DNA of 64,000 nt, taken from Clostridia bacterium. Lineage in GTDB: Bacteria; Bacillota; Clostridia; TANB77; CAG-508. Where the stretch lies: contig JAFTJF010000011.1 in the NCBI GenBank assembly GCA_017456555.1, positions 285,831-349,830 of the forward strand, in the 5' to 3' direction. Shown here piece after piece: positions 2,642 through 22,623 of this stretch (position 1 is its first letter; each line of letters opens with the position of its first letter). Below the pieces are notes generated by a model that saw only the letters and a program-made list of their open reading frames with translations, was not told where the DNA came from and did no database searches. The position numbers and the translations under genes are program-made.

Positions 2642-3706
2642 ATGAGAAATATAATGGAATTTTTGGGGAGTCAGTTGTTAATTTTTTTATCAATTGCTTG
2701 TACATGTTTAATAATGATTGGTTTTGTTCTTACAACGTCAAATGGCACAAGCAATCAAAGTATTTTTGCAGAAGAATTACAAATCGAAAATTATCAACTT
2801 ACTATAGATTTTAATACAGGATCAGAAAAAGCTGCTGATGTGCTAAAATTGGGAATAAATAATTTGAATAATAATTTTACATGGAAAACAGAATCTGTAT
2901 ATGAAGTGTCAGCAACCATTGGTGTATTTTCGTTATTAATAATAGATGCTTTTATAATTATATTGACGATTTTAAATTACTTTGTGGCTAAAATAAGAGT
3001 TATTAAAAGTAAAAAAATATTAAAAGAAAAATACGATTTATCAGATGGGAGCTTATATGAACTTCCGAATTATGAAACAATAATAGCAAATGCGATTTAT
3101 AAAAAGAAATATCAATATGAAATGACAGTGGCACGTTTCGAATATTATTATAGAATTAAAGGTGTATTTGATAAATATAGTAAATTAAAAGAAGAAATAG
3201 ATTTTGATATTAATTCTTTAACAGAAATTGAAAAAATGATTATGAAGCAATTTCAAAAAGATTCTGATAAAACAAAAAAATTAAATTCTGAAGAATTGCA
3301 AATTGAGAATCAAAAAAATAAAAAGGAATTTAAAAATAAAATAGATGAATATTTAAAAGAAAAAGGATATTATAAAGAAGATATAGTAAAAATAAAAACA
3401 AAAAAATTCTTTGCTGCAATAGAAAGAGCCAAAGGAGATAAAGAATATTTTCTTAAATCAGAGGAAGTATTTAGAAATTTTTTAATATTTTTAGTTTTTG
3501 GGCTTATAGTTGGAAGTTCAAGAATTGCAATGCTAGCTGCAATAATATTGGGAATTTGGATTTTTATAAAATATTTTGGAATATCACTAACTCCAGAAGG
3601 CGAAATTGAAAGAGCAAAAATTATATTTTTAGTGGATTATTTGAAAAAGAAAAAAACATTGTCAGAAGAAGAAGAGTATTTTTTTATTATGCTTACAAAG
3701 ATATAA
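2642..3706 (+). CDS. Hypothetical multi-pass membrane protein
   Basis: I do not recognise the family. The 354-residue protein has a hydrophobic N-terminal segment (about 10-32), a short extracytoplasmic-looking stretch, a second membrane helix (about 88-113), a long lysine- and glutamate-rich cytoplasmic region (about 115-270), and one or two more helices near 275-315. The heptapeptide EELQIEN occurs twice, in the outer loop (about residue 45) and in the charged region (about residue 217). The C-terminus ends in a short charged helix. RBS TTAGGAG precedes the ATG and a -10/-35 promoter lies just upstream. It is followed by another single-pass protein with its own promoter, so the two are neighbours rather than a tight operon. 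Confidence 0.7.
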   Translation: MRNIMEFLGSQLLIFLSIACTCLIMIGFVLTTSNGTSNQSIFAEELQIENYQLTIDFNTGSEKAADVLKLGINNLNNNFTWKTESVYEVSATIGVFSLLIIDAFIIILTILNYFVAKIRVIKSKKILKEKYDLSDGSLYELPNYETIIANAIYKKKYQYEMTVARFEYYYRIKGVFDKYSKLKEEIDFDINSLTEIEKMIMKQFQKDSDKTKKLNSEELQIENQKNKKEFKNKIDEYLKEKGYYKEDIVKIKTKKFFAAIERAKGDKEYFLKSEEVFRNFLIFLVFGLIVGSSRIAMLAAIILGIWIFIKYFGISLTPEGEIERAKIIFLVDYLKKKKTLSEEEEYFFIMLTKI

Positions 3707-5749: not shown

Positions 5750-6274
5750 TTAATTAATACTACTTATGATTTCTGTTTCTGAGTTTGATGAAATTTCTTC
5801 TGTTTTGTGAGTGGTTTCTTCAGAAATAGAAGAACTTGATTCTTGAGTTTTTTCTAATGTAGATGAATGTTGTTCTTTTTCAAATTCTTTAACAGATTTA
5901 GATTTTGTGTTTTCTGTTTTTTCTTCGTTTGGATTTAAAATATTATTTATTTTTTCTAAATTTTCTAGCTTTTCTAAGTTATCTAATTTTTTTGAAATAA
6001 TAGCTAATTTTTTATAAACAGCAATTTTCCAATAGCTATCTTGAACTTCTTTCCCGGTATTTGCAGTCATTAAATTTGCAATTGCTAAAAATAAAAGTGA
6101 AGAAATTACAACAATTATTGGTGACCAGAATTTTGGAAATAGAAGTACATCAACTACATAAGAACTAATTACTGCTCCAAGTGCTGAACCAATTGCTGTG
6201 AAAAATATTATACAAAATACTCTTTTAAATTTTATCCAAAATATATGGCTTTTCATTGAATTTTCATCGTACAT
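5750..6274 (-). CDS. Hypothetical membrane protein with acidic Ser/Glu-rich tail
   Basis: The family is not recognised. Of 174 residues, an N-terminal cationic stretch is followed by two close membrane helices (about 16-40 and 48-68), the layout of a small anchor. After them comes a leucine-rich coiled-coil-like segment with repeated LEKLENLEK (about 95-112) and a low-complexity tail rich in Ser, Glu and Thr (about 120-174). The start ATG has a GGGGG-type ribosome site on the minus strand. It is convergent with pgi and divergent from the OLE RNA region. Confidence 0.65.
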   Translation of the reverse strand: MYDENSMKSHIFWIKFKRVFCIIFFTAIGSALGAVISSYVVDVLLFPKFWSPIIVVISSLLFLAIANLMTANTGKEVQDSYWKIAVYKKLAIISKKLDNLEKLENLEKINNILNPNEEKTENTKSKSVKEFEKEQHSSTLEKTQESSSSISEETTHKTEEISSNSETEIISSIN

Positions 6275-7267: not shown

Positions 7268-7801
7268 TTGAAAGATAGCCAGAAAAAAACAAATAATAAT
7301 AGTTGGGTAATTTTTATTGCTATAACAACTTTTATTTTATCATTGCTTTTTTCATTTATATCAAATACAGTAGTTTCTAATTTAAATATAATATTAGGTA
7401 TTTTAGTTTTAATATTAGTAATTTTAATTGGTGTTGTATTTGACTTAATAGGTGTAGCTGTAACTGTAGGAAATGAAGAAGATTTCCATGCACAAGCTAG
7501 TAAAAAAATAAAAGGTGCAAAAACCTCTATAAAAATGATAAGAAATTCAGCCAAAGTATCAAATGTTTGTGCTGACGTAATAGGAGATATTTGTGGAGTT
7601 TTAAGTGGTGCAATAAGTGCTATGATAGCCTTTAAATTAACTGAAAACTATGGAATGAGTTCATCGCTTCAATTTGTATTTAGTGCAATAGTTTCATCAG
7701 TTACTGTTGGTGGAAAAGCGTTAACAAAAGAAATCGCTAAAAACAACTCTACAAAAATAATTGGATTTATAACAAAATTTATAAATGTTGATGAGAAGTA
7801 G
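7268..7801 (+). CDS. oapA: OLE-associated membrane protein OapA
   Basis: This is a 177-residue membrane protein with helices at about 12-32, 40-65, 108-128 and 135-155. A conserved-looking cytosolic loop joins the second and third, containing VGNEEDFHAQASKKIKGAK and VSNVCADVIGDICG. This layout and loop match my knowledge of OapA, the protein that binds OLE RNA and places it at the membrane. The start is TTG at 7268 because the frame has a TGA stop immediately upstream (7262-7264); a GGAG site sits about 11 bases away. It lies 80 bases after the OLE terminator, and a hairpin overlapping its stop codon ends the unit. The assignment depends on the pair being adjacent as well as on the protein itself. 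Confidence 0.75.
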   Translation: MKDSQKKTNNNSWVIFIAITTFILSLLFSFISNTVVSNLNIILGILVLILVILIGVVFDLIGVAVTVGNEEDFHAQASKKIKGAKTSIKMIRNSAKVSNVCADVIGDICGVLSGAISAMIAFKLTENYGMSSSLQFVFSAIVSSVTVGGKALTKEIAKNNSTKIIGFITKFINVDEK

Positions 7802-15137: not shown

Positions 15138-15202
15138 AAATAAGACAGCAAGAAACAAACAATTTTGAATGGGCAAGTGCCCAGAAAGTGAGGAAAAGAT
15201 TT

Positions 15203-16975
15203 ATGAGTAAAGGAAACAACATTCTTGCGCGGTTGGTAGCTATCTTTGCCACGATTCTGGTAACAGGATTGATTGGTATGGGAATTAACTATCTGACCCT
15301 TCCGGCGATGACCTTCCATTCCAGTGGTTTCTGGTGGTTCTGGTTGGTTATCGGTATTATCGCAGCAGTCGTTTACTTTGCAGCCAATGGCATTGCAAAC
15401 AATATCACCTGTGAAGAAGGCGGCTATTTGCCTGGTGTTATCATCTTAGGAGCTACAGCTATTTGGCTGGTAGTTTTCATTGTTACAGCTATTGCTGGCG
15501 GTGAAATGGTAAATGCCAAGAAATACAGCAATCTGATCGAGGTCGAAACAGGCAACTTTGCAGAGGATATCGAACAAATCGATACCGATGACCTTGTTGT
15601 TGTTGATGTCAAGACTGCTCAGCAGTTAGGTAACCGTACAATCGCAAACATCGATAACTCGGCTTGGTATGAAGTGGACAGCGAATACAACCTTGTTGTA
15701 ATCGAGGGAAAAGAATATCGTATCAGCCCTGTTAACTACGGTGGATTGTGGAAGTTCCTGAAGGCAGATGAAACTGGTATTCCTGGATATGTCCTTGTGG
15801 ATGCAAAAGATCAGGATGAAGATGCTAGATATGTAGAACTTGAAGAAAATATCAAGTATTCTCCGTCTGCATGCTTTGGCTATGACCTTACTCGTCACCT
15901 GCGTGGACTCTATCCGAGTCACATCTTCGGTAAATCCTTTTTTGAGGTTGATGATACTGGATGTCCTTTCTGGATTACTAGTGTTAAAACTCCTCAGATT
16001 GGTATGAGAGGCGGACTGGTAACAACTTCCGTTCTGGTAACCAATGCAGTAACTGGTGATACCGAAGAATACGAACTCGATGCGCTGCCTAGCTGGGTTG
16101 ATCATGTTGATTCCGTTAATCAGCTTATGACTCTGTTGGACTGGCACTATAGTTATTGGGATGGTTGGTGGAATTCTGTTACTTCCAAGACCAAAGTCTA
16201 CAAGACTTCCTATTTCTATAAGGACCAGGAACAGAGTGATAGCCAGGAAGAAGGCAAGGTTGACCTTGAAGCCAACAAACACACTCCTTTCGAAGGTTAC
16301 AATAGCATTGTGACTGAAGATGGAAAAGTCATGATTTATACTGGTTTGACTCCTGCTAATAATGCAGAGAGTAACATTGGCTTCCTGTTGATTGATCCTC
16401 GTACTCAGAAGTTTACGTACTACGAAGCTACTGGTGCTGAGGAAGCTTCTGCTCAGAAAGCGGCAGAAGGACTGGTATCTGATCTTAGATATTCTGCTTC
16501 TTTCCCGACCGTTGTGAATGTAGATGGAGTTGAAACATACTTCATGGTACTTAAAGACGGCGCTGGTTTGATTCAGAGATATGCCTTTGCCAATGTTGAA
16601 AACTACGCTAAGTGCGTACAGGCTGAAACAATCGAAAAAGCTCTTAGCTTGTATAAGGTTGAAATTGGTCTGACGAGCTCTGATGAAGTAGTTGATACTG
16701 GCAAAGAAGATGATGACCAGGAACCTTTGCCTGAAGTCAGAGAGTTCTACTATGGAGTGATTTCCGCAGTAGAGGAGGCTCAAATTGATGGCTACACATA
16801 TTATTACTTCACTTTCGAAAGTAGAGAAACTGAAATCTTTATTTCTTCGATTGAGAATAGTAATAAGCAGCCGATGAGACTTAAAGTTGGTACTGCAGTG
16901 AATGTTGAATACTATGAATCCAATACGGAAGAAGGTATCAATATCGTTGTTAATATCAGCTTTACTGAACACTAA
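15203..16975 (+). CDS. Membrane-anchored protein of unknown function, foreign composition
   Basis: About 590 residues. Three hydrophobic segments lie at the N-terminus (about 5-30, 40-62 and 75-98), followed by a large globular region of nearly 500 residues rich in beta-type sequence, probably extracytoplasmic. Notable elements are a Trp-rich segment FHSSGFWWFWL in the membrane part, HYSYWDGWWNS near residue 325, and an acidic linker at about 500-515. I do not recognise a named family. ATG 15203 has GAGGAAAAG at suitable spacing, so I prefer it to the GTG at 15188. Codons such as CTG, CGT, ACC and GCC and the much higher GC contrast sharply with both flanking genes. The gene has its own promoter and a GC-rich terminator, arguing for recent acquisition. 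Confidence 0.75.
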   Translation: MSKGNNILARLVAIFATILVTGLIGMGINYLTLPAMTFHSSGFWWFWLVIGIIAAVVYFAANGIANNITCEEGGYLPGVIILGATAIWLVVFIVTAIAGGEMVNAKKYSNLIEVETGNFAEDIEQIDTDDLVVVDVKTAQQLGNRTIANIDNSAWYEVDSEYNLVVIEGKEYRISPVNYGGLWKFLKADETGIPGYVLVDAKDQDEDARYVELEENIKYSPSACFGYDLTRHLRGLYPSHIFGKSFFEVDDTGCPFWITSVKTPQIGMRGGLVTTSVLVTNAVTGDTEEYELDALPSWVDHVDSVNQLMTLLDWHYSYWDGWWNSVTSKTKVYKTSYFYKDQEQSDSQEEGKVDLEANKHTPFEGYNSIVTEDGKVMIYTGLTPANNAESNIGFLLIDPRTQKFTYYEATGAEEASAQKAAEGLVSDLRYSASFPTVVNVDGVETYFMVLKDGAGLIQRYAFANVENYAKCVQAETIEKALSLYKVEIGLTSSDEVVDTGKEDDDQEPLPEVREFYYGVISAVEEAQIDGYTYYYFTFESRETEIFISSIENSNKQPMRLKVGTAVNVEYYESNTEEGINIVVNISFTEH

Positions 16976-16984
16976 CTCATAAAG

Positions 16985-17020
16985 AGAGGTGCCGGACAAT
17001 GTCCGGCACTTCTTCATTTT
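16985..17020 (+). terminator. GC-rich terminator of the 15203 islet
   Basis: GTGCCGGAC-AAT-GTCCGGCAC is a perfect 9-bp stem, extended by GAG/TTC, followed by a weak T-rich tail. Confidence 0.8.
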
Positions 17021-17089: not shown

Positions 17090-17860
17090 ATGAAAATTTT
17101 AGCGGTAGGAGATATTGTTGGAAAAACAGGTCTTCAAAAATTAAAAGAAGTATTGCCAAAAGTAATTAAAGAAAATGAAATAGATTTTGTTATAGTAAAT
17201 GGTGAAAATGCAGCTGATGGTATGGGGATAACAGAAAAAATGTATAGAGAAATATTAGCATTAAATGTTAATGTTGTAACAATGGGAAATCATACTTGGG
17301 GTAAAAAAGAAATATTTAACTTTATAGATGATAAACAAATAATTAGACCAGCAAACTATTCAAAAAATAATCCAGGCCGTGGATATGATATATATGAATG
17401 TAAAGGTAAAAAAATTGCTGTAATAAATTTGATAGGAAGAACAACAATGTCAGTTCTTTCAGAAAATCCATTTACAGTAGCTAAAGAGATTGTTAGTGAA
17501 GTAAAAAATAAAGTAGATATGATAATTATTGATTTTCATGCTGAAGCAACAGCTGAAAAAATTGCTTTAAGCTATTATTTAGATGGAGAAATAACAATTT
17601 TATTTGGAACACATACTCATGTTCAAACGGCTGATGAAACAATTTTAGAAAAAGGAACAGCTTATATAACAGATATTGGAATGACAGGACCTGCAAAATC
17701 AGTTATAGGAATGGATGTAGGAGCATCTATAAAAAGATTTGAAACTTCACTTCCAGAAAAATATAAAATTGCTGAAGGAAAAGGAAAATTCAATAGTTGT
17801 TTATTTGAAGTTGATGACAAAACAAATAAAGTTACAAAAATAACTAGAATTAATAAATAA
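17090..17860 (+). CDS. ymdB: YmdB-family metallophosphoesterase
   Basis: This is a TIGR00282/YmdB-type calcineurin-like phosphoesterase, in Bacillus active on 2',3'-cyclic nucleotides and needed for biofilm/sporulation signalling. Its 256 residues are the expected length. Metal-binding motifs are GDIVGKTG at the N-terminus, NGENAADGMG, GNHTWGKKE, DFHAEATAEK and GTHTHVQTADE, which together supply the Asp/Glu/Asn/His ligands. RBS AAGGAG. A promoter (TTGATA, 17 bases, TAAAAT-like) lies between the islet terminator and the start. Its usual neighbour rny is not here. Confidence 0.94.
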   Translation: MKILAVGDIVGKTGLQKLKEVLPKVIKENEIDFVIVNGENAADGMGITEKMYREILALNVNVVTMGNHTWGKKEIFNFIDDKQIIRPANYSKNNPGRGYDIYECKGKKIAVINLIGRTTMSVLSENPFTVAKEIVSEVKNKVDMIIIDFHAEATAEKIALSYYLDGEITILFGTHTHVQTADETILEKGTAYITDIGMTGPAKSVIGMDVGASIKRFETSLPEKYKIAEGKGKFNSCLFEVDDKTNKVTKITRINK

Positions 17861-20782: not shown

Positions 20783-20824
20783 TTGACAAAAGAAAATTTA
20801 AAGATATAATAAGAACATAAGTTT
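20783..20824 (+). promoter_or_regulatory. recA promoter with candidate LexA operator
   Basis: TTGACA (20783-20788), 16 bases, TATAAT (20805-20810). GAAC-ATAA-GTTT at 20813-20824 overlaps the transcription start and differs by one base from the Gram-positive SOS box GAAC-N4-GTTC. A second weaker palindrome, AAC-ATTT-GTT, lies at 20833-20842. The position fits SOS repression of recA. Confidence 0.65.
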
Positions 20825-20856
20825 TACAAACAAACATTTGTTAGGAGGAAAAATAA

Positions 20857-21927
20857 ATGGGAAACAATTCAGAAAAAAGAAAAGCATTAGATGCTGCAAT
20901 GAGTCAAATAGAGAAACAATTTGGTAAAGGTTCTGTAATGAAATTAGGAGATTTCAAAGCAACTAGTGTTGATGCAATTTCAACAGGAGCTTTAAATTTA
21001 GATATAGCTTTAGGAATAGGTGGTATTCCAAGAGGAAGAATAATAGAAATATATGGACCAGAATCATCTGGTAAAACAACACTTGCTTTACATGCTGTTG
21101 CAGAAGCTCAAAAAACTTGAGGAGAAGCAGCTTTTATAGATGCAGAACATGCTTTAGATCCTGCTTATGCTAAAAAAATTGGTGTTGATATAGATAATTT
21201 AATAGTATCTCAACCAGATACAGGAGAACAAGCATTAGAAATCGCAGAAGCTTTAATTAGAAGTGGTGCAATAGATATAGTTGTAGTAGACTCTGTTGCT
21301 GCTTTAGTTCCGAAAGCTGAAATCGATGGAGATATGGGAGATGCCCATGTTGGTTTACAAGCAAGATTAATGTCACAAGCTTTAAGAAAATTAGCTGGAA
21401 CAATTAATAAAACAAATGCAACAATAATCTTCATTAACCAATTAAGAGAAAAAGTTGGTATAATGTTTGGAAATCCAGAAACAACAGCTGGTGGTAGAGC
21501 ATTAAAATATTATGCTTCAGTAAGAATGGATATAAGAAGAGTTGAAGCAATAAAACAAGACGGAGAAGTTGTTGGAAATAGAACAAGAGTTAAAGTTGTA
21601 AAAAACAAAGTTGCTCCACCATTTAGAGAGGCTGAATTTGATATAGTATATGGAAAAGGGATTTCTAAAGAAGGAAGTGTACTTGATTTAGCTGTTACTT
21701 TAGATATAATTGAAAAAGCAGGTTCTTGGTTCAGTTATAATGGAGAAAAAATTGGACAAGGACGTGAAAATATTAAAAAATTATTAGCAGATGATCCTAA
21801 ATTCATGGCTGAAGTAGAGAAAAAAGTAAGAGATAACTTTAACAAAGCATTTGAAAATGCTTTAACAGATGAAGGAGAAGTTGACGAAGAACAAGATATC
21901 GAACCAGATGAGGAAACTGAAGAATAA
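20857..21927 (+). pseudogene. recA: Recombinase RecA, interrupted by in-frame TGA at codon 88
   Basis: RecA forms filaments on single-stranded DNA for homologous recombination and SOS induction. The whole 356-codon frame is RecA: Walker [10 protein letters not shown] near residue 67, [10 protein letters not shown], Walker [13 protein letters not shown], the [15 protein letters not shown] loop 1 region, [10 protein letters not shown], loop 2 [13 protein letters not shown] and an acidic tail. Codon 88 (21118-21120) is TGA where homologues have Gly (…QQQGGQAAF in Bacillus), a single G-to-T difference from GGA. As written, the product stops after 87 residues, just past Walker A. No frameshift is present, and the downstream frame remains perfectly conserved, so the lesion is very recent, a sequencing error, or read through. 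AGGAGG precedes the ATG. Confidence 0.93.
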
Positions 21928-22152: not shown

Positions 22153-22623
22153 ATGGAATACATGAGTAAAGAAAAATTCGAAGAAGCTGAAATAATAGAA
22201 AAATTAAGAAACAAAATGTTAAAATATATAGTATACAAAAAAAGAAGTGAAGCTGAAATAAGACAAAAATTTGCAGAAGAAGATGAAAATATGGTTGAAG
22301 ATGCTATAGAATATTTTAAAGAATTAAACTATATTAATGATAGTGTATATATAGAAAGAGCTGTGAAAGAATATATGGCATTAAAAAATATGTCAATAAA
22401 AGAACTTTCTTATAAAATTTGTCAAAAAGGAATAAGCAAAAGTTTAGTAGATGATTACATTTGCCAAAATAAAGAAAGTATGTTAGAATATGAAATATCT
22501 TCAGCTAAGGCTATTATATTAAAGAAACAAAATAGCTCTGAGGAGCAAGAAATAAGAGATTTTCTATTCAAAAAAGGCTATATGAGTGAATCAGTAAGTA
22601 TAGCATTTGATGAAGTAAAATAA
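22153..22623 (+). CDS. recX: Regulatory protein RecX
   Basis: RecX binds RecA filaments and limits their activity. The 156-residue protein has the three-helix repeat organisation. The first repeat contains MLKYIVYKKRSEAEIRQKF, then ELNYINDSVYIERAVKEY, MSIKELSYKICQKGISKSLV and a C-terminal repeat with EIRDFLFKKGYMSE. GTGAGG lies just before the ATG. It follows recA by 225 bases, as in many Bacillota, and is followed 18 bases later by scpA. It is intact although the recA frame carries a stop. Confidence 0.88.
   Translation: MEYMSKEKFEEAEIIEKLRNKMLKYIVYKKRSEAEIRQKFAEEDENMVEDAIEYFKELNYINDSVYIERAVKEYMALKNMSIKELSYKICQKGISKSLVDDYICQNKESMLEYEISSAKAIILKKQNSSEEQEIRDFLFKKGYMSESVSIAFDEVK

Follow-up and report, generated by a model that had tools for sequence, protein, structure and literature searches.

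The window, a stretch of 64,000 nucleotides, carries recA as one forward-strand frame at 20857-21927, and this frame contains a single internal stop, the TGA at 21118-21120. The source genome, G000, comprises 1,670,427 bases in 13 contigs and is 88.5% complete; recA lies in the interior of a 427-kb contig, preceded by the TIGR00282 phosphoesterase gene, spoVS and a peptide-binding-protein gene and followed by a recX-like gene and scpA. The features on which the analysis rests are these:

17090..17860, + strand: TIGR00282 metallophosphoesterase gene, uninterrupted, which by name we take to be ymdB; neighbour used to find relatives
20783..20841, + strand: upstream region of recA; similar sequence stands 5' of recA in relatives
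20857..21927, + strand: recA, one frame with one stop; TIGR02012 is matched by its two pieces in order, within a single frame
21118..21120, + strand: the internal TGA; of 120 aligned loci, 114 have Gly here, 5 Asn and 1 Lys
22153..22623, + strand: recX-like gene, uninterrupted, 156 aa; NF010733, 58.6 bits
22642..23406, + strand: scpA, uninterrupted; served as the adjoining gene by which recA was sought in relatives

We find that the 87-aa piece 5' of the stop, in which Walker A is present, matches positions 1-81 of TIGR02012 (E = 2.9e-39), that the 268-aa piece 3' of it matches positions 84-321 (E = 1.2e-127), and that PF00154 is matched over positions 1-262 across recA, in order and in one frame, with one TGA inside. 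The locus resembles that of a RecA recombinase (TIGR02012/PF00154) in the order and common frame of its two pieces and in the recX-like gene and scpA that follow; it differs in the in-frame stop, which occupies the Gly position of the list above, and in that each piece alone is incomplete. The 120 aligned loci include some genomes twice, and distinct recA loci number 114 of 123. Judged on 56 relatives, 198 columns of the protein are nearly invariant, and the G000 sequence departs from none of them, which means that recA worked until very recently, or still does. A first-pass annotation of this DNA had described a single TGA where Gly is expected, in a frame intact on both sides, and had called for a comparison with recA of near relatives; the alignment, the ordered TIGR02012 pieces and the unchanged columns bear this description out.

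Two further claims of that annotation, an intact recX and an SOS-like promoter, hold in part. The gene 3' of recA is uninterrupted, but its 58.6 bits fall under the NCBIfam curated cut-off of 240 for NF010733. Upstream of recA lie TTGACA (20783-20788), TATAAT (20805-20810), GAACATAAGTTTT (20813-20825) and ACAAACATTTGT (20830-20841); a looser GAAC-type region 5' of recA is common to the relatives, but the strict box GAAC-N4-GTTC, found 5' of recA in 23 of 116 loci, is absent from the whole window.

Elsewhere in the window we note a full-length OLE RNA (RF01071; 6541-7144, + strand; 255 bits, E = 5.3e-71; gut-type clostridial group), whose flanking ORFs at 5753-6274 (− strand) and 7268-7798 (+ strand) have no Pfam match. 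Long ORFs also overlap on both strands, at 15188-16972 (+ strand, 595 aa) and 15626-17017 (− strand, 463 aa); the former starts with hydrophobic segments and likewise lacks a Pfam match.

One stop in an otherwise conserved frame has the look of a fresh null, and a genuine, very recent recA-null mutation, whether of the strain or of the commonest variant in the sampled population, is the main rival to the reading that we favour below; we regard it as possible, on balance doubtful. Such a mutation would leave an 87-aa fragment that has Walker A but lacks the remainder of the core; neither homologous recombination nor SOS induction would work, and the remaining gene and its neighbours would be too young for decay. 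recA is non-essential in model bacteria, and the search for a second recA proposed in the first-pass annotation finds none in G000 (PF00154 match at E 0.001; 1.67-Mb draft, 88.5% complete). The null also draws support from the position of the in-frame ATGs between the stop and 21500 (21334, 21370 and 21463), all of which lie beyond Walker A; a restart of translation 3' of the stop would therefore give no working core, and we reject it as a rescue.

Divergence within the gene bears on the same question. For G000 against ten relatives, dN 3' of the stop is 0.024-0.048 and dS is 0.46-0.98, with dN close to that of relative-versus-relative pairs (0.009-0.039). In the 87 residues of the 5' part, dN against relatives is 0.050-0.060 and exceeds the 0.007-0.033 of pairs among five relatives, a difference that favours a null and leans against a fully undisturbed gene. 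The absence of change at any nearly invariant residue argues against a null. A decaying pseudogene is unsupported, given those unchanged columns and the low dN relative to dS 3' of the stop; the rest of recA is not in decay, with dN before the stop somewhat above that of relative pairs.

Lesions in sister genomes supply the control to which we give most weight. The genus sample comprises 53 genomes including G000 and the order sample 209, and presence was counted as a match over cut-off. Within the genus, 44 of 53 genomes have a full-length recA with no interruption, the gene is truncated or split in two in G018 and G050, and five genomes (G002, G021, G024, G041 and G049) lack a match over cut-off; the lesions proper are the stop in G000 and a frame break in G043, or 2 of the 48 genomes with a match over cut-off. 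The G043 lesion is an independent frame break near residue 30, at another site, and we thus reject it as an instance of the same TGA. By comparison, 43 genus genomes have a match to rpoB, and in at least 6 of them the gene is broken, by a stop in G032 and by frame breaks in G044, G011, G003, G007 and G019; for ruvB the tally is at least 5 genomes out of 50, with a TGA in G039 and broken frames in G027, G036, G037 and G044. These counts come from re-alignment of six rpoB suspects, all broken, with G034 intact as a check, so that six is a lower bound, and of five ruvB suspects, all broken, with G012 intact as a check. rpoB is an essential gene, and its lesions must therefore largely be draft-genome errors or misjoins; it follows that lesions in such assemblies are no evidence of nulls, which counts directly against a null in recA.

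These comparisons make it probable, in our view, that the TGA at 21118-21120 is a base error: one base of the draft consensus would be wrong at this codon, and the organism's own recA would probably be intact. We infer that the recA TGA arose by the same error process as the rpoB and ruvB lesions, and G000 is presumably a metagenome assembly, as its nearest named relatives are. The lesions in essential rpoB and in ruvB and the unchanged nearly invariant columns all speak for a base error. The likeness to draft and metagenome-assembly errors lies in the stops and frame breaks of rpoB and ruvB in the genus; the difference is that most of those lesions, including five of the six in rpoB, are frame breaks, whereas recA of G000 has a stop, and the rpoB stop rate rests on one case. 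Nor is G000 obviously a poor assembly: across 164 kb compared (63 orthologues common to G029 and 12 common to G020), recA is the sole orthologue with an internal stop, and just one other orthologue has a lesion, an ambiguous frame break relative to G029. The first-pass annotation had called a fresh recA null striking; in a genus whose drafts also break essential rpoB, and ruvB, the case is far less so. Its three options, an error, a fresh null or readthrough, are partly supported, in that its dismissal of recoding holds (see below), but it missed the genus-wide background of lesions against which they have to be weighed.

Other recA lesions among the relatives can be cited for a null: L095 also has one in-frame stop, a TGA at 3334-3336 at another conserved Gly, and L056, like G043, has a frame break (~2909-2911). 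Loss of recA as a trait of the group is rejected, since over-cut-off matches are also missing in the genus for ruvB (3 of 53) and rpoB (10 of 53), and in the order sample, which was scored for presence, recA is present in 202 of 209 genomes and ruvB in 198 of 209; that recA is absent no more often than ruvB also tells against a null.

Individual genomes yield further observations. In the sister species G041, whose TIGR00282 protein is 92% identical, the contig ends shortly after spoVS, and the species is of no help here. G024 (contig C3, L173) and G021 (contig C8, L174), which are 92% and 96% complete, have an scpA neighbourhood with other genes in place of recA and recX, and no RecA was found in either genome; recA may truly have been lost in them, or may have moved and be unassembled. 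In ruvB, the frame is broken at the same place, after query residue 151, in two species, G037 (L204) and G044 (L205), and this common break may represent an error-prone site, a common real lesion or a programmed frameshift.

Stop rates were estimated from 142 sequences, with only those codons counted that were seen from at least two other genomes. On this basis recA has two stops (G000 and L095) in 38,873 codons, the other conserved genes have none in 69,196, and rpoB and ruvB together have two in ~62,448, the last figure being derived from rounded genome counts. The binomial probability of the recA excess is ~0.13 when the other genes serve as reference and ~0.23 when all controls do, so that on these sequences recA stops are not clearly above background; the rate per codon is nonetheless higher in recA than in any control, which, without reaching significance, weighs against a base error. 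At the pooled rate of four stops in ~170,500 codons, ~0.8% of such genomes would carry a stop in any one gene of 356 codons. The listing of stop sites behind these rates has nine entries, seven of which were set aside as lying 5' of a start codon; the final count required at least two genomes on both sides. All stop sites together number 201, the majority of which precede a start or lie beyond an end, and among them are sites from one genome, L084 470 for example, and the out-of-frame gene tail L032 2009-2039.

Three of the four stops occupy Gly positions, in recA of G000, in recA of L095 and in ruvB of G039, and the fourth a Glu position, in rpoB of G032; provided that all were single-step changes, every one is of the G-to-T class that the first-pass annotation had named. 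In the recA of one relative, 52 of the 178 ways to reach a stop in one step are of this class, and in the window's genes its share is 22%; four out of four would fall in it by chance with a probability of ~0.2-0.7% (n = 4, post hoc). Such a narrow spectrum fits one artefact process, and so a base error, but a real mutation could have the same bias.

Because three of the four stops in conserved genes (recA of G000 and L095, ruvB of G039) are TGA at Gly, we also consider that UGA might be decoded as Gly in the lineage of G000, an explanation to which we give almost no credence. PMC8629427 lists UGA as Gly in bacteria for Gracilibacteria and Absconditabacteria alone. G000 is like those lineages, as they are described there, in the TGA at a Gly position of its recA, and unlike them in having no UCA anticodon that we could find, in having RF-1-domain factors and in using TGA as a stop. 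More specifically, the tRNA matches in G000 number 30, an incomplete set with no tRNA-Ala and no tRNA-Ile; among them tRNA-Gly reads UCC or GCC, tRNA-Trp reads CCA, and none has the UCA anticodon, so that the first-pass proposal to look for TGA-decoding tRNAs comes back empty for this set. The tRNA-Gly species found in G039, G043, G029 and the genome of L095 likewise read UCC or GCC and never UCA. G000 encodes two RF-1-domain proteins as release factors, and TGA terminates 4 of the 44 window ORFs of at least 150 aa, in each case with another in-frame stop no more than eight codons further 3'. Recoded UGA is thus unsupported, in agreement with the first-pass view that TGA is a normal stop elsewhere in the window and a reassigned code unlikely.

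A real TGA could also be leaky. The sole tRNA-Trp found in G000 has the anticodon CCA, a 4-bp anticodon stem (U27/C43 unpaired) and A24, and the tRNA-Trp of G029 and of G034 has the same form. In PMC13092985, an overexpressed 4-bp-stem tRNA-Trp raises UGA readthrough ~2.5-fold in E. coli, and the form is the only tRNA-Trp in ~6.5% of standard-code genomes. If tRNA-Trp misread UGA at 21118-21120, a share of the RecA would be made at full length, with Trp in this place, and the protein would be reduced rather than lost. The unpaired top pair and A24 in the three genomes are what likens this case to the readthrough described there; it is unlike it in that the tRNA form is known here from sequence and that recA of G029 and G034, with the same tRNA-Trp, is uninterrupted, and the spread of the form among standard-code genomes indicates that alone it does not make UGA sense. 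The rarity of TGA as a terminator (6 of 120 ORFs in 164 kb) is in keeping with a leaky stop, but low TGA use also fits an AT-rich genome. Trp occurs at the stop position in none of the 120 loci, where only Gly, Asn and Lys are seen, and the scan for tRNA-Trp covered stretches of six genomes, three of which gave one, with none in the stretches from G020, G046 and G030. On this evidence we consider a leaky stop improbable. It is equally hard to credit, at a similarly low estimate, that recA here is naturally limited by readthrough, with the ruvB TGA in G039 as a second case of the same tolerance.

Taken as a whole, the evidence points to a sequence error or a commonplace mutation of recent date as the most likely source of the recA TGA, and not to new biology; a base error in the draft remains the reading that we prefer. 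Were the stop real, G000 would be a gut bacterium without homologous recombination, or one in which RecA is limited by stop-codon readthrough. More likely the locus serves as a caution: at least 6 of 43 drafts of the genus carry even the essential rpoB in broken form, and a single interrupted gene in a draft genome therefore needs an essential-gene control before it is made the basis of a biological account.
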